DNA of 64,000 bases, taken from Pinibacter soli. Lineage in GTDB: Bacteria; Bacteroidota; Bacteroidia; Chitinophagales; Chitinophagaceae. The translations under genes were made by a program, and so were the position numbers. Below the pieces are notes generated by a model. It worked only from the letters and a program-made list of their open reading frames with translations, was not told the origin of the DNA and made no database searches. The stretch spans positions 1 to 64,000 of the forward strand of contig NZ_JASBRG010000005.1 in the NCBI RefSeq assembly GCF_029961145.1. Direction: 5' to 3'. The first letter of the stretch is position 1; each line of letters starts with the position of its first letter. Of this stretch, positions 49,914 to 58,631 are shown piece by piece.

Positions 49914-50906
49914 TCAAATAATGCGTTTTACTCGTTGCTCAAGCAACATCAAATCTGCAAGCACAATTGCCGTAACCGCTTCTAACACTGGCGGCACACG
50001 CAATGCAATACACAGATCGTGACGTCCTTTTACAGAGAATGTTTCCATTTCGTTGGTTTCCCAGTTCAATGTAAACTGATCTTTTGGTGTAGAAGAAGTT
50101 GGTTTTATCGCAATGCGAAAAACCAATTCATTACCATTTGTAATACCACCTACAACACCACCAGCATGATTGGTAATTGTTTTCCCTTCTGCATTTTCAA
50201 TGGCATCGTTATGTTCAACACCAAACATCTTAGCTGCGGCAAAACCCGTTCCAAACTCAACACCACGAACGGCTGGAATAGCAAACACAGCGTGACCCAA
50301 CAATGATTCAACAGAATCGAAAAACGGTTCACCTAAACCAATAGGCAATCCGCTCACGCGACATTCAACAATACCGCCAACAGAGTCTTTTGCTTCAATG
50401 GCTTTTTGCAAACCTTTCTCCACATCTTTCTCTCCTCCCACTTCAGTTATCGTTGCTTCTACTTTAATGTCGCCTAATATTTTTTTCGCGACAACACCTG
50501 CCGCTACCAACCCTACTGTAAGCCTTCCACTGAAGTGACCACCACCGCGGTAGTCTTCGTTACCACCAAATTTTTTGCTGGCTACAAAATCAGCATGGCC
50601 CGGTCTTGGCACTGCACGTTGTTTGGCATAATCGCCGGAACGCGTGTTGTTGTTCTCAAACAAAATAGTGATAGGTGCGCCTGTTGCCTTGTCGTTAAAC
50701 AAACCACTTTTAAAGAACGGAAAATCGTCCTCCTTACGCGGCGTTGTACCTTTCTGCTGACCGCCTTTTCGTCGCTCCAGATCAGGCAAAAAGTCTTCTG
50801 TTTTCAAAGGCAATCCCGCAGGAACACCATCGATCAATACACCAACACCTTCGCCGTGCGATTCACCAAATATGTTTACTCGAAAAATACGTCCGAATGA
50901 GTTCAA
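49914..50906 (-). CDS. aroC: chorismate synthase
   Basis: A 330-residue FMN-dependent enzyme that turns EPSP into chorismate, the last shikimate step. Motifs: NSFGRIFRVNIFGESHGEGV, RPGHADFVASKKFGG, DYRGGGHFSGRLTVG, and the C-terminal GRHDLCIALRVPPVLEA. Family members begin at MNSFGRIF, so the start is TTG at 50906; an upstream TTG at 50930 would add eight residues. There is no ATG. It is the last aro gene of the operon. Confidence 0.95.
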   Translation of the reverse strand: MNSFGRIFRVNIFGESHGEGVGVLIDGVPAGLPLKTEDFLPDLERRKGGQQKGTTPRKEDDFPFFKSGLFNDKATGAPITILFENNNTRSGDYAKQRAVPRPGHADFVASKKFGGNEDYRGGGHFSGRLTVGLVAAGVVAKKILGDIKVEATITEVGGEKDVEKGLQKAIEAKDSVGGIVECRVSGLPIGLGEPFFDSVESLLGHAVFAIPAVRGVEFGTGFAAAKMFGVEHNDAIENAEGKTITNHAGGVVGGITNGNELVFRIAIKPTSSTPKDQFTLNWETNEMETFSVKGRHDLCIALRVPPVLEAVTAIVLADLMLLEQRVKRII

Positions 50907-50940
50907 TGCTTTAAGTTTTAATCTTAACAATTTTATTGAA

Positions 50941-51012
50941 GTAAAAATTCAAAAATCAAAATTCAAAAATCAGGGTCTCTGCTTTTTAACTTTTGCCTTT
51001 TTACTTTTTACT
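50941..51012. repeat. spacer arms between aroA and aroC
   Basis: AAAAATTCAAAAATCAAAAT (50943-50970) and TTTTAACTTTTGCCTTTTTA (50983-51010). The second arm contains the aroA stop codon. The two are only loosely complementary. Confidence 0.6.
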
Positions 51013-52284
51013 TACCTCAGCCTCTAGCACCACAGCGCCTAATTTCTTAATGTGTTCATAAAAATCAGGATACGATTTATTGATCGCTTCTGCCACTTCG
51101 ATGGTGGTTTCGCCTGTTGCTTTTAAGCCTGCAACAGCGCATGCCATCGCGATCCTGTGGTCGTGGTGAGAATGAACAACAGCGCCTCTTACACCACCAC
51201 CACCATGCACGATCATGAGGTCGTCCTGTAAATCTATTTGAATGCCCATTTTGCCGAATTCCTCCTGCAAAGTAAGTGCACGATTGCTTTCCTTATGCGT
51301 TAAACGATTAGCACCTTCTATTACCGTTTTTCCGGCGCAATAAGAGGCTAACGCAACCAAGGGAGGGAACAAGTCCGGGCATTCTGTTGCATCGAAATGA
51401 AAGGCTTTTAAGGCAGCAGGACCAATCTCTATTTGCGACTCCTCAATCGACATACTTGCACCACAATCCGTCAATGCCTGCAAAATGGCTTTATCTGCCT
51501 GCGTTGAAAATACATCCAATCCTTTCACCGTAATTTTTCCGGCAATGGCACCTGCTACCAACAAGAATGCAGCACCACTCCAATCTCCTTCAACAGTGTA
51601 GTTGATAGTTGTTGGTTGTGAGTTGCTAGAAGGTGTTATTATAAATTGCTCGTAATTTTTATTTTCAATTTTGTAACCGAAGTGGGCCAATACTTTTAAC
51701 GTAAGATCGATGTATGGCTTGCTTTTTAAATTGGTTACGTTTATAGTTGTTGGTTCTGTTACAGATGCCGCGTACGCAAACAACAAACCTGTAAGAAACT
51801 GTGAGCTTAATGATCCGTCGATAGTGATCTCTTTTGTTTGCAAAGGACCTTTTACTACCAATGGCAATTTACCATCGTTTGATTTCACCTGTATGCCAAG
51901 ATCAGGCAATACTTCATCGAAAAAATCCATTGGTCTTTTAAGCAAACTACCTTCTCCATTGATGGTGATAGGTACTTTGTTCATAGAAATGATTGGTGCA
52001 AACATGCGAATGCCCAAACCACTTTCTCCGCAGTTTATTCTTTCGTTTTCAGCATTTACACCATTGCTTGTTACATGCAATTCTTCACCCACCAAAGAAG
52101 TTTTTGCGCCCATTTGCTGGATTACATCAATGGCTGCATTGTCATCATTGCTATGTCCCGGATTGTGTATGATCGTTGTTCCCTTGTGCAACAGCGCCGC
52201 CGCACATGCACGTTGCATGGAGCTTTTAGAAGCCGCTGCCACAATGGACCCTGTGATAGAAGATGGTTGTATGGTTACGTTCAT
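51001..52284 (-). CDS. aroA: 3-phosphoshikimate 1-carboxyvinyltransferase (EPSP synthase)
   Basis: A 427-residue two-domain enzyme that transfers enolpyruvate from PEP to shikimate 3-phosphate. The N-terminal SKSSMQRACAAALL binds substrate, the LNCGxxGxxxR-like motif reads NCGESGLGIRMFAP, and DGSLSSQFLTGLLFA and HHDHRIAMACAVAG are standard. The NCGESG loop differs from the LGNAGTAMRP of glyphosate-sensitive class I enzymes, so tolerance should not be assumed either way. Part of the aro operon. Confidence 0.95.
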   Translation of the reverse strand: MNVTIQPSSITGSIVAAASKSSMQRACAAALLHKGTTIIHNPGHSNDDNAAIDVIQQMGAKTSLVGEELHVTSNGVNAENERINCGESGLGIRMFAPIISMNKVPITINGEGSLLKRPMDFFDEVLPDLGIQVKSNDGKLPLVVKGPLQTKEITIDGSLSSQFLTGLLFAYAASVTEPTTINVTNLKSKPYIDLTLKVLAHFGYKIENKNYEQFIITPSSNSQPTTINYTVEGDWSGAAFLLVAGAIAGKITVKGLDVFSTQADKAILQALTDCGASMSIEESQIEIGPAALKAFHFDATECPDLFPPLVALASYCAGKTVIEGANRLTHKESNRALTLQEEFGKMGIQIDLQDDLMIVHGGGGVRGAVVHSHHDHRIAMACAVAGLKATGETTIEVAEAINKSYPDFYEHIKKLGAVVLEAEVSKK

Positions 52285-52392: not shown

Positions 52393-53403
52393 CTAGATCA
52401 ACGTTTTCAATTCGTTCAATGGAATCGGTCGTACAACACCTTTTCCTATTTTTTCGAGCAAAATGTAGTTCATTTCGTTGCGCACTTTTTTCTTATCGTG
52501 TGTAAGAATTTCAAATGCTTTTTCTTTATCATACTCTGCAACGGTTGGTAAACCATACTTACTCAACAACGCAATTACTTTTTCAGACTGTTTGAAACCA
52601 AGCAATTTCTTTGAGATCATGGCTGCAGTGGTCATACCAATTGATATGGCCTGACCATGACCAAGCTCGTACATGTTTTCTACCGCATGTCCCAAAGTAT
52701 GTCCGTAGTTGAGCAAACGTCTTTCACCCTGTTCGAATTCATCACGTTGAACAACACCCGCTTTTATTTTAACATTGGTCTGGATCAATGCAGATAACAA
52801 TGTTTTATTCTTCTGAAAATTTGCCAGTGTTTTTTCTTCCAGCAGTTTAAACATACGGGCATCTTTAATGCAGGCATGTTTAATAATTTCTGCAAAGCCG
52901 TTTATCCACTCGCTTTCAGGCAATGATTTTAATAAGCTGTAGTCGTACAACAAAAACTCCGGCTGACGAATAGTGCCCACCATGTTTTTATATACGCCAA
53001 CATCAATTCCATTTTTTCCTCCGATTGCTGCATCTACCATTGCAAGGATGGTGGTTGGTATAAAACCAAATCGCAATCCACGCATGTAAATCGCGGCAAC
53101 GTATCCTGTGATGTCAGTGATAACGCCACCTCCGATGCCTGCTAAGAAAGTTTTTCTGTCGGCGCCAAATGCTATCAACTGTTCAATTACAGTATCAACA
53201 GTCGGTTGAATTTTATACGCTTCTCCGGCTTTCAGAACAATTACGTTCCAGCCTTTGAGTTTCTTTTCGTGGTTGGCAAAAACATTTTCATCCGTGATAA
53301 CAACTGCATTTTGTTTATCTACAATTGTTTTTAGATCAGCGAATGCTGTATCGAAATAAAAAAAGGTTGAGGCTGTAGAGAATTTGTAAGTTAGTTTCTT
53401 CAT
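52393..53403 (-). CDS. aroB: 3-dehydroquinate synthase
   Basis: A 336-residue NAD- and metal-dependent enzyme that cyclises DAHP to 3-dehydroquinate. GGGVITDITGYVAAIYMRGL and FIPTTILAMVDAAIGGKNGI are the NAD/substrate core, and metal ligands lie in NYGHTLGHAVE. Length is normal. Central gene of the aro operon, with arms on both sides. Confidence 0.95.
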   Translation of the reverse strand: MKKLTYKFSTASTFFYFDTAFADLKTIVDKQNAVVITDENVFANHEKKLKGWNVIVLKAGEAYKIQPTVDTVIEQLIAFGADRKTFLAGIGGGVITDITGYVAAIYMRGLRFGFIPTTILAMVDAAIGGKNGIDVGVYKNMVGTIRQPEFLLYDYSLLKSLPESEWINGFAEIIKHACIKDARMFKLLEEKTLANFQKNKTLLSALIQTNVKIKAGVVQRDEFEQGERRLLNYGHTLGHAVENMYELGHGQAISIGMTTAAMISKKLLGFKQSEKVIALLSKYGLPTVAEYDKEKAFEILTHDKKKVRNEMNYILLEKIGKGVVRPIPLNELKTLI

Positions 53404-53508
53404 GAAAGTTGTTAGTTGTTGGTTGTTAGTTGTTAGGTAGTTGATAATTGGTAGAGCTCCTTAAATAGGAAATATTCTAACAACTATCAACTAACAACTA
53501 ATAACTTC
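53404..53508. repeat. inverted-arm spacer, GTTGTTAGTTGTTGG family
   Basis: Left arm GTTGTTAGTTGTTGGTTGTT (53407-53450) and right arm CTAACAACTATCAACTAACA (53479-53505). Confidence 0.88.
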
Positions 53509-53509
53509 T

Positions 53510-54601
53510 TTAATCATTCATGATCTTATTCTGGTGGTTGATGCTTTCCATGTGCAGTGCATCGTAGTATTTGGTGATGAACTCTTTGCTAAGACCCATT
53601 GCTTCACCTTTTTTGAATGCACGCTCAAGAATTTCATTCCAGCGGTTTGTTTGTAAGATCGTGATGCTGTTCTCTTTTTTGTATTGACCGATCTTGTCAG
53701 CTACTTTCATACGTTGTGCAAGGATTTGCATTAACTCATCATCAAGGTGATTGATTTGCTGACGCAATTTTTCCAACGCCGCATGATATTCTTCTGAGTT
53801 AACATCTTCTTTTCTCCAAACGATGTCGTTAAGCATTTCTGCCAAACGCTCAGGAGTGATTTGTTGTTTAGCATCGCTCCATGCATTGTCCGGATCGATG
53901 TGGCTCTCGATCATCAAACCATCGTAATCAAGGTCAACACTTTTTTGTGAAACGGCTTGCAAAATATCTCTGCGTCCGCTGATATGGGAAGGATCGCAAA
54001 TGATTGGCAAATCAGGATTGCGGCGTTTCATTTCAATAGCAAGGTGCCACATAGGCGCATTGCGATATTCGCTATTACCGTAAGAACTGAATCCACGGTG
54101 GATCAAACCAACTTGTTTAATACCTGCTTTTTGTACACGCTCAACAGCACCTGTCCATAATTCAAGATCAGGGTTGATCGGGTTTTTGATCAATACAGGA
54201 ATATCAACACCGCGAAGTGCATCTGCCACTTCCTGTACGCTGAACGGGTTTACAGTCGTTCTGGCACCGATCCAAAGAACATCTACATCAAAGCTCAATG
54301 CATCTTCCACTTGCTTTGCGGTAGCTACTTCTACTGTTGTTGGCAAACCGGTAATTTTTTTTGCCTGTAACAACCAGGGTAATCCTTTCACACCAATTCC
54401 TTCAAACATGCCTGGTCTTGTACGAGGTTTCCATATACCTGCACGAAGCATGTCTACTTTGCCTGTTGCGGCAAGGCGCTGTGCTGTTTCCAGCATCTGG
54501 CTTTCGGTTTCTGCACTGCATGGACCGGAAATAATCAACGGTCTTTTGCTTGTCCACAGTGTTTGTACTTGTTCTTTCATGGTTTGATCTGTTGCTTGCA
54601 T
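53510..54601 (-). CDS. DAHP synthase - chorismate mutase fusion
   Basis: A 363-residue bifunctional protein. Residues about 1-265 form a type I beta (KDO8P-synthase-like) DAHP synthase: LIISGPCSAETESQM, RAGIWKPRTRPGMFEG, LIHRGFSSYG, PIICDPSHISGRR. Residues about 275-355 form an AroQ chorismate mutase (LEKLRQQINHLDDELMQILA, RMKVADKIGQYKKE). It thus catalyses the first step of the pathway and the branch to prephenate; the mutase part commonly makes the synthase sensitive to prephenate. The adjacent pheA and tyrA lack mutase domains, consistent with this fusion supplying it. Confidence 0.95.
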   Translation of the reverse strand: MQATDQTMKEQVQTLWTSKRPLIISGPCSAETESQMLETAQRLAATGKVDMLRAGIWKPRTRPGMFEGIGVKGLPWLLQAKKITGLPTTVEVATAKQVEDALSFDVDVLWIGARTTVNPFSVQEVADALRGVDIPVLIKNPINPDLELWTGAVERVQKAGIKQVGLIHRGFSSYGNSEYRNAPMWHLAIEMKRRNPDLPIICDPSHISGRRDILQAVSQKSVDLDYDGLMIESHIDPDNAWSDAKQQITPERLAEMLNDIVWRKEDVNSEEYHAALEKLRQQINHLDDELMQILAQRMKVADKIGQYKKENSITILQTNRWNEILERAFKKGEAMGLSKEFITKYYDALHMESINHQNKIMND

Positions 54602-54744: not shown

Positions 54745-55596
54745 CTATTTTATTATCCTTCTGATTTTATTTGCGTTTTCAATGAGTTCAAGTAAATAAT
54801 CGTAATTCTCTTTTTCCAAACATGCCTTGAACTTTTTCAATTGTGTAATGTGTTCGTTCAATACATCGAGCACATTGTCACGGTTTTGCCTGAATATCGG
54901 CACCCACATGTTGGGATTGCTTTTCGCGAGACGCACCGTGCTTTCAAAACCACCACTCGCCAATTCGAAAATGGCCCTGTCTTCTTTCTCTTTTTCCAAC
55001 ACCGTATTTGCTAACGCAAACGATGTGATGTGAGAAATGTGACTGATGTATGCGGCGTGCAAATCATGAGCGTATGCTTCCATTTCAATCTGGTGCATGC
55101 CTATTTTTTTGTAAATGAATCTCACAAGTTCGACTGCATCTTTATCGCTGTCTGATGCGTTGCATATTACAACGGCTTTGTTTTCAAATGCTCCTTTTAC
55201 TGCTGCTTCTGGCCCGCTATACTCCGTGCCCCACATAGGATGCGAGGCAACGAATCTTTTACGTTTTGGATGGTTACGAACTGCTTCTATCAAAAGATGT
55301 TTTGTTGATCCCATGTCGAATACTACCTGCTTGTCGTTTACTTTATCAAGTATGGAAGGCAGTATTTCGATCATTTTGTCTACCGGAATAGCCAAAGCAA
55401 TTACATCACAATTTGCGATGGCCTTGTCGAGATCCATTGCTTCATCGATCAGGCCCAGATCAAGTGCTTTCTTCAAATGCGCGGGGCTTGCATCTACACC
55501 AATGATGTTAGATGCGATACCGTTTGCATTTAACTGCAAAGCCATCGATCCCCCTATGAGACCTATACCGACGATTGCAATTCTTTTTCGTTCCAT
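54745..55596 (-). CDS. tyrA: prephenate dehydrogenase
   Basis: A 283-residue NAD-dependent enzyme that makes 4-hydroxyphenylpyruvate for tyrosine. The Rossmann motif is AIVGIGLIGGSMALQL, the catalytic His region SHPMWGTEYSGPEAA and the substrate helix AYISHISHITSFALANTVL are present. No mutase or ACT domain. Part of the aro operon. Confidence 0.93.
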   Translation of the reverse strand: MERKRIAIVGIGLIGGSMALQLNANGIASNIIGVDASPAHLKKALDLGLIDEAMDLDKAIANCDVIALAIPVDKMIEILPSILDKVNDKQVVFDMGSTKHLLIEAVRNHPKRKRFVASHPMWGTEYSGPEAAVKGAFENKAVVICNASDSDKDAVELVRFIYKKIGMHQIEMEAYAHDLHAAYISHISHITSFALANTVLEKEKEDRAIFELASGGFESTVRLAKSNPNMWVPIFRQNRDNVLDVLNEHITQLKKFKACLEKENYDYLLELIENANKIRRIIK

Positions 55597-55609
55597 TGGT
55601 TATGATATT

Positions 55610-55720
55610 TTCTTTTCAACTTTCAATTCGATCAGCGTTTTGGGTGCAGCAGGGCGAATGCGATTCGCCCATACAGAATCCTCATTTTCAACTTTCAATT
55701 TTCAACTTTCAATTCTCTTA
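55610..55720. repeat. spacer arms, TTTTCAACTTTCAATT family, same orientation
   Basis: CTTTTCAACTTTCAATTCG (55611-55629) and CATTTTCAACTTTCAATTTT then CAACTTTCAATTC (55682-55714). Unlike other spacers both arms point the same way. The second supplies the stop of the aminotransferase gene. Confidence 0.7.
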
Positions 55721-56856
55721 ATCGCTTCTTCAAACTTTTCCACCGGGGCGCAAAGGCTCACCCGTATGTAACCATTGCCATTGCTGCCGAATATACCGCC
55801 AGGCGTGATGAATACATTTGATTCGTACAACACTTTATCACTTAGCGCATATCCATCAGTGTAAGTTGATGGTATTTTTGCCCAAACAAACATTCCGGCT
55901 TGCGTGGTATCGTACTCGCATTGCAACATATCGAGCAATTGAAACACCTTTTTTCTTCTTTCACGGTAAACGCTGTTCACGCTATCGTACCAGTCTTTAC
56001 CGAGGTTCAAAGCTGTTGCTGCCGCCAGTTGTACAGGCAGAAACATACCACTGTCCATATTACTTTTGAAGCGTAACACTTCGTCAATTCTTTCTTTTGC
56101 GGCGACTAAAACACCTACTCTCCAACCGGCCATGTTCTGGCTTTTACTGAGCGAATTCAATTCTATCACAACATCTTTTGCTCCTTCTACAGACAGCAAA
56201 CTTTCAGGTTGTTCATTTAAAATGAAACTGTATGGATTATCGTGAACGAGTAACAAATTATTTTTCCTTGCAAATGCTACAACTGCTTCAAACGCTTTCT
56301 TAGTGGGCAATTGACCGGTTGGCATGTGCGGATAATTAACAAACATGAGCTTAATATTGCCTTGTTCTTTTACCACTTTTTCAAGCGCTTCAAAATCCGG
56401 GAACCAGTTGTTTGCTTCAGTAAGATCGTAGTACAAAGGCGATCCTCCGGCAAGTTTTGCAGCACTTGTGTAGGTTGGGTAACCTGGATTTGGCACCAAT
56501 ACTTTATCACCATCATTCAGGTATGTCATGCAAATGTGCATGATGCCTTCTTTACTGCCGATTAAAGGCAAAACTTCAGTATCAGGATTTAAGTCAACAT
56601 TATACCATTTTTTGTACCAGTCGCTTACAGCTTTACGCAAAACAGGTGAACCGGTATAGCTCTGGTATCCATGCACATTTGTCTTTGCACTTTCTTCCTG
56701 CAGTGTTTTGATCACATCAGGATGCGGTGGCATATCAGGACTTCCTATTCCTAAATTGATGATGTTTTTTCCAGCCTTGTTCAGCTCGCCTATTTCACGC
56801 AATTTTTGTGAAAAGTAGTATTCGCCTATTCCGTTTAACCTGTTTGCTGTCTGCAT
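55702..56856 (-). CDS. class I PLP-dependent aminotransferase (probably aromatic or prephenate)
   Basis: A 384-residue fold-type I aminotransferase close to the LL-DAP aminotransferase/AspC-like group: LGIGSPDMPPHPDVI, GSKEGIMHICM, PNPGYPTYTSAAKLAGG, and the PLP Lys in LNSLSKSQNMAGWRVG. Its place between pheA and tyrA makes a role in Phe/Tyr synthesis (phenylpyruvate, hydroxyphenylpyruvate or prephenate transamination) the best inference. The C-terminal RIES and stop lie in a spacer arm. Confidence 0.9.
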   Translation of the reverse strand: MQTANRLNGIGEYYFSQKLREIGELNKAGKNIINLGIGSPDMPPHPDVIKTLQEESAKTNVHGYQSYTGSPVLRKAVSDWYKKWYNVDLNPDTEVLPLIGSKEGIMHICMTYLNDGDKVLVPNPGYPTYTSAAKLAGGSPLYYDLTEANNWFPDFEALEKVVKEQGNIKLMFVNYPHMPTGQLPTKKAFEAVVAFARKNNLLLVHDNPYSFILNEQPESLLSVEGAKDVVIELNSLSKSQNMAGWRVGVLVAAKERIDEVLRFKSNMDSGMFLPVQLAAATALNLGKDWYDSVNSVYRERRKKVFQLLDMLQCEYDTTQAGMFVWAKIPSTYTDGYALSDKVLYESNVFITPGGIFGSNGNGYIRVSLCAPVEKFEEAIKRIES

Positions 56857-56867
56857 GATTATAATTC

Positions 56868-56985
56868 AAAAATTAAAATTCAAAATTCAAAAACCGTTCA
56901 TTTATATTCTGCACCCGTCATTTTCCATTTTCAACTTTCTATTTTCAATTCACTCTCAACTCTCCACTCTCAATTTTCAACTCTT
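56868..56985. repeat. spacer with unmatched AT-rich arms
   Basis: AATTCAAAAATTAAAATTCA (56873-56897) and CATTTTCAACTTTCTATTTT then CAATTCACTCTCAAC (56928-56960). The right arm supplies the pheA stop. Confidence 0.6.
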
Positions 56986-57804
56986 CATCTCCCCTTTTTT
57001 GTACACCCCGTATACCTTCAATTCTTCTGTCATCGGTGTTATTTTTTCCACTACCGTGTTGAATTGATCCAATGAATCGAATTCCATGTCTGCGTGGAAA
57101 GAGTATTTAAAGTCGCTGCCCGGAATAGGGAAGCTCTGTAACTTGCTGAGGTTGATGCCGCCTTCGGCGATGTTGGTGAGCACTTTTGCGAGACTGCCTC
57201 TTGAGTGATCTGTGTGGAAATTGATGGAAGCTTTGTCTGCGTTGGATATTTCCTGTGCTATATTTTCTGGCTGCAATATCAGGAACCTTGTGTAGTTATT
57301 CTTTAGCGTGTGGATGTTGGGGGCGATCATGTCAAGATCGAAGAGTTCTGCGGCGAGTTTACTGGCGATGGCGGCGATGTGCTTGCTTTTGTGCTGGTGA
57401 ACATGTTTTGCGCTGAGTGCCGTATCTTCTGTTTCCACCAATTTCCAGTTGTGTTTTTCGAGGAAATCTATACACTGCAAAATCGCCATCGGGTGTGAGT
57501 GAACTTCTCGTATATCTTCCAGTTTTACGCCGCGGTTTACCATCAGGTTTTGTGCGATATGAAGGTAAACCTCTCCCACAACCTTCAATTTACTTTTCTG
57601 GAGCAAATTGTAATTGGGTAAGATGCTTCCGGCAATAGAGTTTTCAATGGCCATAACGCCGCCGTCACTTTCTTTTTTGTTGGATGCCACTTTTACCACA
57701 TCACGAAAATTCGGACAGGTAATGACCTCTACATCCTTCCCGAAAAACTGCCTTGCGGCCACCTGGTGAAAACTACCCTCGTATCCCTGAATCGAAACTT
57801 TCAT
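56977..57804 (-). CDS. pheA: prephenate dehydratase with ACT domain
   Basis: A 275-residue enzyme that makes phenylpyruvate. The catalytic dehydratase domain covers about residues 1-180 (IQGYEGSFHQVAARQFF, GGVMAIENSIAGSILPNYNL, VHSHPMAILQCIDFLEKHNW, NNYTRFLIL with the catalytic TRF). A C-terminal ACT domain (DHSRGSLAKVLTNIAEGGIN) should bind phenylalanine for feedback control. First gene of the aromatic operon and directly behind the attenuator. The last residues (MKS and stop) come from a spacer arm. Confidence 0.95.
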   Translation of the reverse strand: MKVSIQGYEGSFHQVAARQFFGKDVEVITCPNFRDVVKVASNKKESDGGVMAIENSIAGSILPNYNLLQKSKLKVVGEVYLHIAQNLMVNRGVKLEDIREVHSHPMAILQCIDFLEKHNWKLVETEDTALSAKHVHQHKSKHIAAIASKLAAELFDLDMIAPNIHTLKNNYTRFLILQPENIAQEISNADKASINFHTDHSRGSLAKVLTNIAEGGINLSKLQSFPIPGSDFKYSFHADMEFDSLDQFNTVVEKITPMTEELKVYGVYKKGEMKS

Positions 57805-57824
57805 TTTTTGTTACGGTTTAAAAC

Positions 57825-57908
57825 AAAAAATCCCGGCGTTTCTGCCGGGATTCATTTATGTTGTTAGTTGTTTTTATTTAACGACGATTCAACAAAAGCA
57901 ATCCCGGC
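57825..57908 (-). promoter_or_regulatory. transcription attenuator of the aromatic operon
   Basis: On the minus strand the 9-nt word GCCGGGATT occurs at 57908-57900 and again at 57837-57829, and its complement AATCCCGGC lies between at 57852-57844. Copies 2 and 3 make a terminator hairpin with loop AGAAAC and a following T-run (57830-57825). Copies 1 and 2 make a rival antiterminator. Copy 1 lies inside the leader ORF, 9 nt after its last Phe codon. This is the layout of ribosome-mediated attenuation. Confidence 0.92.
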
Positions 57909-57964
57909 TTCTGACTAAAGAAGAAGTAAAAATAAAATCGGTTATGCTTTTTCGAGTTGATCAT
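57878..57964 (-). CDS. Phe/Tyr-rich leader peptide of the aromatic operon
   Basis: A 28-codon ORF too short for normal calling: MINSKKHN then RFYFYFFFSQKPGLLLLNRR and TAA at 57880-57878. Seven consecutive aromatic codons (F-Y-F-Y-F-F-F) form the control region. A ribosome delayed there by uncharged Phe- or Tyr-tRNA would leave the first GCCGGGATT word free to form the antiterminator. The ATG lies 7 bp after the -7 box, so the mRNA is almost leaderless. The peptide itself probably has no other role. Confidence 0.93.
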   Translation of the reverse strand: MINSKKHNRFYFYFFFSQKPGLLLLNRR

Positions 57965-57971
57965 TATTTGT

Positions 57972-58002
57972 CAAAAATATAAACTATTTGAAATTATCAA
58001 AA
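57972..58002 (-). promoter_or_regulatory. promoter of the aromatic operon leader
   Basis: TTTTG at 58002-57998 (-33) and TATTTTTG at 57979-57972 (-7), 18 bp apart, matching the Bacteroidota TTG/TAnnTTTG consensus and placing transcription start a few bases before the leader ATG. Confidence 0.8.
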
Positions 58003-58067
58003 TTTATTTTAAAAATGTGTTACGTTATTCAAATAATGCCATTCTTTGTTAAACGCAGTATTTACAG

Positions 58068-58631
58068 CTATTGCAGGCGATTTAGAATCTGTTGGTCAAT
58101 TTTCTTGAAAAGATGGTATGGCTTGTAAATCCGCCAGTTATCTATTTCCATCAGTTCGATGTAGTAATTCAGTTTTGCCTTTTTAAAGTCGTGCTGCGTT
58201 TGTTGGGGCATGTTAAGGCACACGATCCAGCCTTCGTTGTCGGTCACTTCTTCAAACCATTCCTGATAGTAATCTTTGTCGCCGCTGTGAAAATTAAGCA
58301 CATTTTCCGTTATCAAAATAAATTTCGTGATGCCTTCGTATTCCATTTTGTCGATCACATCCCGTTTCAGGGTCATGATGTCGTTTTCAATAGCATCGTT
58401 CCATTCCCCGATCAATTCGAGGATCACGTATTTCTCTTCATAGTCGGCCATTATTTCCTTCATGTACAGGGTGCGTGAGCCAAATTCATCCCACTGCGGG
58501 TGTATGTAGTAGTTATACACCGTGTGCGTAAACTCGAATTCAGAGTACACCCTTCCATAAAAAGGCGACCGCTCGTCTTCCTCGCTGGTATAAATATGCC
58601 GCCAGTTATAAAAAGGTTCTATTTCGTGCAT
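58068..58631 (-). CDS. conserved hypothetical protein
   Basis: A 187-residue soluble protein with a high aromatic and acidic content (EPFYNWRHIYTSEEDERSPF, VYNYYIHPQWDEFGS, KYVILELIGEWNDAIENDIM, WFEEVTDNEGWIVCLNMPQ). It resembles a family found mainly in Bacteroidota, without assigned function. It is upstream of the aro operon on the same strand, but the leader promoter separates them. Confidence 0.7.
   Translation of the reverse strand: MHEIEPFYNWRHIYTSEEDERSPFYGRVYSEFEFTHTVYNYYIHPQWDEFGSRTLYMKEIMADYEEKYVILELIGEWNDAIENDIMTLKRDVIDKMEYEGITKFILITENVLNFHSGDKDYYQEWFEEVTDNEGWIVCLNMPQQTQHDFKKAKLNYYIELMEIDNWRIYKPYHLFKKIDQQILNRLQ

Follow-up and report, generated by a model that had tools for sequence, protein, structure and literature searches.

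A predicted four-segment Phe/Tyr attenuator upstream of the pheA operon of Pinibacter soli and its conservation in Chitinophagaceae

Introduction

Leader-peptide attenuation is known from E. coli, and the enteric pheA attenuator combines a Phe-rich leader peptide with alternative antiterminator and terminator structures. A comparative study of bacterial attenuation by Lopatovskaya et al. (2010) reportedly may cover Bacteroidetes as well. Within the phylum, the amino-acid operons of Flavobacterium psychrophilum were reported to show strong signs of attenuation by leader peptides; the pheA and hisG 5′ elements of this species occur also in other Flavobacteriaceae and are described as having no Rfam matches (PMC9723704). 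Mixed aromatic codons have a precedent in the aroF leader of Corynebacterium glutamicum, in which Phe-Tyr-Phe precedes a DAHP synthase gene; this is however an Actinobacterium, three aromatic codons are named, and the likeness is one of codon content (PMC4046766). A leaderless attenuator ORF is described for trpL of S. meliloti, where the attenuator transcript (rnTrpL) starts at the leader ATG, although this is a Trp leader of an Alphaproteobacterium and a different RNA (PMC7298713). Reinitiation at leader genes was treated by Korolev 2016, the accessible portion of which does not deal with a pheA element of the Pinibacter type (PMC4833913).

The locus studied here lies in a 64,000-nucleotide stretch of Pinibacter soli DNA (the window). 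It resembles the enteric pheA attenuator (Rfam RF01859, Phe_leader) in its Phe-rich leader, its alternative hairpins and pheA as the first gene, and differs from it in mixing Tyr with Phe, in a predicted 5′-UTR of about 3 nt and in an operon that includes genes of the shared aromatic pathway. With the F. psychrophilum pheA 5′ element it shares phylum and gene, and the two, compared by description only, are likely the same element (PMC9723704). From the comparisons reported below, the region upstream of pheA very probably constitutes a classic four-segment ribosome-mediated transcription attenuator, which would sense charged tRNA-Phe and tRNA-Tyr and control how often transcription continues into pheA and, probably, into the six aromatic genes that follow.

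Results

Parts of the leader region

The original prediction had named a promoter, a 28-codon leader with the run FYFYFFF, three 9-nt words and a T-run 20 nt before pheA. All of these were found on the minus strand where it had placed them, and the words are exact, lying at 57908-57900, 57852-57844 and 57837-57829. From promoter to T-run the element spans 58002-57825 on the minus strand, with 18 nt between TTTTG and TATTTTTG. The following parts are read directly from the sequence:

57998-58002, minus strand: −33-like promoter element TTTTG
57972-57979, minus strand: −7 box TATTTTTG (consensus TAnnTTTG), 7 nt 5′ of the leader ATG
57878-57964, minus strand: leader ORF of 28 codons, MINSKKHNRFYFYFFFSQKPGLLLLNRR, with a leader in 153/160 upstream regions of the family
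57917-57937, minus strand: control codons TTT TAT TTT TAC TTC TTC TTT (FYFYFFF)
57825-57830, minus strand: T-run of the G+C-rich terminator hairpin, 20 nt 5′ of the pheA ATG at 57804

These parts stand out from chance expectation in the window itself. When the 400-nt region upstream of pheA was shuffled 2000 times with its dinucleotides preserved, an ORF with at least seven aromatic residues in nine appeared once; when the final 160 nt were shuffled 5000 times, a 9-nt word followed by its complement and by a second copy of itself appeared seven times. The 149-nt leader folds with a z of −3.61, one of 200 shuffles being equally good, and RF01859 gives a weak match over the full length of the model (1-125 of 125; 29.8 bits, E 0.0051), the gathering score of 55 bits not being reached. 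A 187-aa ORF (58068-58631) with no Pfam or NCBIfam match lies 5′ of the leader and is read in the same direction.

Conservation of the leader in relatives

Of 147 Chitinophagaceae genomes searched, 103 contained pheA; all 103 loci were read, together with 80 loci of named genomes (the best 80 of 226), the two sets overlapping. Removal of identical upstream regions left 161, of which 160 were of full length; L087, with 45 nt upstream, was set aside. The closest relative among those sampled is Pinibacter aurantiacus, the PheA of which is 99% identical. Leader ORFs with at least six aromatic residues in nine were detected in 153/160 upstream regions, compared with 5/160 on the antisense strand and 71/3200 in shuffles. 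Among these 153 leaders, 147 are followed by a terminator no more than 110 nt beyond their stop codon, the other six having none by the rule used, and around the end of 134 of the 147 leaders an exact complement (at least 5 nt) of the terminator 5′ arm was found. Both Phe and Tyr occur in every one of the 147 terminator-bearing leaders (860 Phe, 541 Tyr, and 25 Trp in 24 leaders).

Fewer than six aromatic residues were found in seven of the 160 upstream regions (L013, L045, L084, L156, L165, L182 and L183). By eye a leader is present in L013, L045 and L084, which the ORF length rule had missed, and L156 has a degenerate leader; the upstream sequences of the pheA copies L165, L182 and L183 contain no leader. 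L165 belongs to a genome in which pheA (G049:C50) stands apart and leaderless, while a leader precedes the aminotransferase-tyrA pair (L301, G049:C33). At another locus (L302, G006:C53:333300-334300) two tandem aromatic leader ORFs, MIQQTTFGYFYGFYFFWYQK and MLHQFSLYFFYFFFYFFYVVKAGTLL, precede pheA, each with a match to the model R1 described below, and this may perhaps represent double attenuation.

The CGGG core was followed through the reading frames of the 134 leaders with a complement: it falls into all three frames (89, 25 and 9 leaders) and is absent in 11, so that conservation concerns the RNA and not the end of the peptide.

Leaders of this type extend beyond the family. In a draw from the class and order, a pheA match was obtained in 53 of 198 genomes, 50 of the 53 being outside Chitinophagaceae; 47 of the 50 were read (minus G271, G177 and G169), three loci (L228, L230, L232) could not be placed by tblastn and one containing N was dropped, which gave a set of 43 loci. 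An aromatic leader precedes pheA in 27/43, compared with 13/860 shuffles and 1/43 antisense regions; a terminator follows 19 of these 27 leaders, and a complementary word was found for 18 of the 19.

The model R1 was built from alignment A1, which contains this window. In the own genome R1 gave one strong match (112.7 bits) and 19 weaker ones with E up to 1; the three next-best are hairpins or other features with no aromatic leader, and another weaker match (E 0.027) falls in part on the ilvD leader. Of 60 family genomes, 44 were matched at E ≤0.001, 40 of them at ≤4.5e-6. Since the match in G031 has neither an aromatic ORF nor an aromatic gene in the 2 kb read, R1 yields false matches, at least one among these.

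Pairing of the RNA segments

The original prediction held that the words can pair first with second or second with third, the latter pairing being followed by a T-run; these pairings can give an antiterminator or a terminator. The prediction overlooked a protector segment (S1) and a second antiterminator helix formed by TGTTG (57894-57890) with CAACA (57863-57859), with which the region has the full four-segment enteric layout:

57939-57952, minus strand: S1, directly 5′ of the aromatic run, pairs with S2 (protector helix)
57890-57908, minus strand: S2, first word GCCGGGATT plus TGTTG, inside the ORF and directly 3′ of the run, pairs with S1 or S3
57844-57863, minus strand: S3, made up of CAACA and the second word AATCCCGGC, partner of either S2 or S4
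57828-57837, minus strand: S4, with the third word, forming the terminator 3′ arm opposite the 5′ arm at 57853-57844

RNAalifold, run on the 114-sequence alignment, returned the terminator only and no antiterminator or protector helix; the segment pairs were therefore tested individually. In an alignment-free covariation test on 114 non-redundant sequences, the mean duplex energy of each segment with its own partner was compared with that obtained with the partner from other species, using 2000 permutations. The own partner was favoured for S2:S3 (−21.4 vs −17.5 kcal/mol, z −15.7), for S3:S4 (−18.9 vs −14.6 kcal/mol, z −22.5) and for S1:S2 (−13.5 vs −11.0 kcal/mol, z −10.0), with none of the 2000 permutations as low in any of the three. 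Control pairs that have no role in the model showed no own-partner excess in the same 114 sequences (S1:S3, z 0.0; S1:S4, z −1.1). These statistics retain some shared ancestry, which is however disfavoured as the cause of the covariation because the control pairs are silent.

Similarly, the paired cells in alignment A1 amounted to 80.5% for S2:S3 (shuffles 77.2), 69.5% for S1:S2 (63.0) and 94.9% for S3:S4 (89.4); none of 500 shuffles was as high for any of them, and every slide was lower. Two-sided changes occur in 14 of the 17 pairs of S2:S3. S1:S2 is the weakest pairing: two-sided change was found in 9 of its 10 pairs, a value reached by 196 of 500 shuffles, and a slide of −1 gave 84 two-sided cells against 74 unslid. 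As judged from these comparisons, a competing antiterminator that overlaps the leader ORF is kept by covariation, as is characteristic of this class of attenuators, and a protector helix is present too, with weaker support, the pair counts giving a partly mixed picture.

Both conserved features proposed in the original prediction as a check, an aromatic-rich ORF upstream of pheA in related Chitinophagaceae and compensatory changes in the pairing words, have thus been found, and its two word pairings agree with the own-partner excess of S2:S3 and S3:S4. Its view that the re-use of one word in both hairpins is unusual did not hold, since the arm of a terminator and the segment that competes with it are bound to share their sequence. 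Nor is the mixture of Phe with Tyr codons unusual as it had supposed, being the rule in the family leaders and having a precedent in the F-Y-F of C. glutamicum aroF (PMC4046766).

Codon content of leaders before other amino-acid genes

Upstream of hisG in relatives, an ORF with at least four His in nine was present in 20 of the 22 loci, all of which were read, the one at L236 being unconvincing. At the trpE loci, sampled as 20 of the 28 listed trpE-family matches, at least three Trp in nine were found in 17 of the 19 with an ORF, and L262 was added by another rule; the pattern search used here also caught false Trp ORFs. None of the ORFs upstream of hisG or trpE contained more than five Phe/Tyr in nine. 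Many of the trpE leaders (L255-L273) share a conserved end, WWWHTNSSGV(L/M/V) or similar.

Four further leaders were read in the Pinibacter soli genome:

C9:130816-130866, minus strand: His-rich leader (HIHHHH) of hisG, with terminator and complementary word
C7:177468-177530, plus strand: WWW leader of trpE, with terminator and complementary word
C12:108034-108138, minus strand: Ile/Val-rich leader (AIIIVVVVIII) of ilvD, with terminator and, by the rule used, no complementary word
upstream of C9:335638, plus strand: Thr/Ile-rich leader (ATTIAIIAT) of aspartokinase, read from sequence, with neither terminator nor complementary word by the rule used

The last of these precedes a long aspartokinase that is probably fused to homoserine dehydrogenase. 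For ilvD (8 of 10 loci), clear Ile/Val runs were seen in this genome as well as in a sister (L309, L307) and partial ones in L304 and L310, with none in the remaining four; for aspartokinase (8 of 28 loci), a Thr-rich leader was seen in 7 of 8. The own-genome set of these leaders (His, Trp, Ile/Val and Thr/Ile) is much like the enteric set. On these sequences, the residue type of the leader follows the pathway, as charged-tRNA sensing requires. The ribosome-mediated attenuation put forward in the original prediction is in this way strongly supported by comparison, through the leader ORF, the covarying alternative pairings and the codons that match the operon.

Promoter position and leader start

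A generic sigma-70 promoter scan was dropped as unsuited to Bacteroidota promoters, and the TAnnTTTG box was used instead. In F. psychrophilum this box sits at −12 to −5 (PMC9723704), and by this placement rule transcription of the Pinibacter leader is predicted to start at about 57967, some 3 nt 5′ of the leader ATG. An exact box was detected at most 45 nt away from the ATG in 130/153 family leaders, compared with 1/129 in a control window. With the leader ATG taken as the last in-frame ATG before the aromatic run, by which some distances may be overlong, box and ATG are 4-10 nt apart in 110 of these 130, giving a predicted 5′-UTR of 0-6 nt in 110/153 leaders. Large ORFs at the same loci had a box at this distance in 1 of 10 box-bearing cases (394 ORFs, start codons uncertain). 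Outside Chitinophagaceae, an exact box precedes 15 of the 27 aromatic leaders, in all of them 15-35 nt from the ATG. The distance is short in 13 of the 14 hisG leaders of relatives that have a box; most trpE leaders of the real WWW type are without an exact box.

Near-leaderlessness thus looks like a Chitinophagaceae trait of the pheA leader and, so far as seen, of the hisG leader, at least at the level of the predicted start. The original prediction had called such a start unusual; it stands as a prediction for this locus, while the short distance is common to most family leaders. For comparison, leaderless mRNAs make up 5.5% in F. psychrophilum (PMC9723704), and in B. thetaiotaomicron the share of 5′-UTRs shorter than 10 nt is about 3.7% (PMC7366714).

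The operon downstream

Seven genes follow the element on the minus strand:

56977-57804, minus strand: pheA, prephenate dehydratase (best NCBIfam model, below curated cut-off)
55702-56856, minus strand: aminotransferase, class I/II (best NCBIfam model below curated cut-off; Pfam domain model passes)
54745-55596, minus strand: tyrA, prephenate dehydrogenase (best NCBIfam model, passes curated cut-off)
53510-54601, minus strand: DAHP synthase with chorismate mutase domain (NCBIfam below curated cut-off; Pfam domain models pass)
52393-53403, minus strand: aroB, 3-dehydroquinate synthase (best NCBIfam model, passes curated cut-off)
51001-52284, minus strand: aroA, 3-phosphoshikimate 1-carboxyvinyltransferase (best NCBIfam model, passes curated cut-off)
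49914-50930, minus strand: aroC, chorismate synthase, start codon uncertain (best NCBIfam model, passes curated cut-off)

The seven-gene aromatic operon of the original prediction agrees with these best-model names, with one reservation: the best NCBIfam models of the aminotransferase are LL-diaminopimelate aminotransferases, so that its aromatic role rests on its position in the operon. Neither a TAnnTTTG box nor a terminator-like site was found in the six intergenic gaps, and the order pheA-aminotransferase-tyrA is kept in 78 of 80 loci from named genomes (the best 80 of 226; 3-kb flanks), 39 of them with the next gene visible. It is likely that one transcript covers all seven genes, and the attenuator would then control them jointly. 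Three of the gaps (56857-56976, 55597-55701 and 53404-53509) contain low-complexity repeats that are TTGAAAATTGAAAG-like or AACAACTAACAAC-like.

Proposed course of the switch

Given the predicted start some 3 nt 5′ of the leader ATG, a ribosome could load with hardly any delay. During a shortage of Phe- or Tyr-tRNA it would stall in the F/Y run and hold S1 off S2, whereupon the S2:S3 antiterminator could form once S3 has been made and the polymerase would continue. If both tRNAs are plentiful, the ribosome would cross S2 to the stop codon and mask the S2 end; the S3:S4 terminator with its T-run would then form and transcription would stop 20 nt before pheA. Without translation, S1:S2 would form and the terminator would win again.

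This course was followed in the 114 sequences by a folding script, on the assumption that the ribosome reaches some 12 nt beyond its A site. With the ribosome in mid-run, S2:S3 forms before S4 exists in 112/114 sequences, and with no translation the terminator forms in 107/114. With the ribosome at the stop codon the terminator forms in 114/114, an outcome that is nearly built in, as most of S2 is excluded from the folded piece. At equilibrium, with a mid-run stalled ribosome and S4 present, the terminator is favoured in 82/114, this window included, and the antiterminator wins in 32/114, compared with 1/570 in a spacer-shuffled control. A switch by free-energy comparison alone thus fails in most sequences. 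As equilibrium favours the terminator despite the stall, the switch must rely on folding order in this model, and we infer that it is kinetic, set by the order in which the segments fold.

Alternative explanations

T-boxes for aromatic amino acids occur in Firmicutes. Tyrosine T-boxes in particular are named in PMC1262725. A riboswitch or T-box would show a similar pair of alternative terminator and antiterminator; the amino acid or an uncharged tRNA would then be bound directly by the RNA, the short ORF being incidental. Rfam searches gave no T-box or riboswitch either at 57700-58200 with E up to 10 or across the window at gathering score, where a tRNA was the only match; moreover the F/Y ORF is itself conserved, and the hisG and trpE leaders bear codons matching their own pathways, which together leave this explanation extremely improbable. 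We give equally little credence to the leader acting as a peptide, be it a TnaC-like arrest sequence responding to free amino acid or a small protein in its own right. An N-terminal KAY and an end RPG(M/L)LLL do recur in many leaders, but the KAY part overlaps with S1, for which a pairing partner exists, and the GC-rich word, read in all three frames (89, 25, 9), ends the peptide as RPGMLLL, SRVVFAK or RECFC, so that what the leaders have in common is the RNA.

An unregulated, constitutive partial terminator behind a T-rich stretch could draw on the T-richness of the F/Y codons and on the dominance of the terminator at equilibrium. It is nevertheless very unlikely, given that aromatic ORFs exceed the dinucleotide shuffles (153/160 vs 71/3200), that F and Y occur together in 147/147 and that the antiterminator and protector pairings covary. 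Compatible with attenuation, and still unlikely, is an additional role of the terminated leader RNA (about 143 nt) as a small RNA acting in trans: such a short structured RNA should build up when amino acids are plentiful, and rnTrpL of Sinorhizobium meliloti provides a precedent (PMC7298713), yet the switch alone explains the conservation observed.

Discussion

Attenuation of this kind is already known; in Chitinophagaceae it comes with the full four-segment layout, mixed Phe/Tyr codons and a family-wide predicted near-leaderless start. The original prediction had known of no detailed description of such an attenuator in this group. We likewise found no detailed account of a Chitinophagaceae pheA attenuator in the open literature, most subscription papers lying outside its reach; attenuation and a pheA 5′ element have however been reported in F. 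psychrophilum (PMC9723704). The literature search met only hints, and the present work offers for Bacteroidota a full model of an attenuator of aromatic genes, supported by covariation, that places Phe, Tyr and the shared aromatic pathway behind one probable switch.

A tentative extension, which we regard as possible rather than probable, is that the attenuator is built on a purposely near-leaderless ORF: with the ATG almost at the 5′ end of the RNA, a ribosome would engage immediately without a Shine-Dalgarno sequence and report the Phe/Tyr supply in step with the polymerase. In Chitinophagaceae this arrangement would be a derived condition, having arisen from longer 5′-UTRs such as those elsewhere in the class, and the hisG leader would share it. 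Bacteroidota are reported not to rely on Shine-Dalgarno sequences (PMC9723704). Attenuation needs a ribosome close behind the polymerase, and its conservation therefore argues for coupling of transcription and translation in Bacteroidota. The predicted near-leaderless start makes this coupling directly testable and, if it is true, the near-leaderless leaders of Chitinophagaceae would be a natural test of transcription-translation coupling in the phylum.
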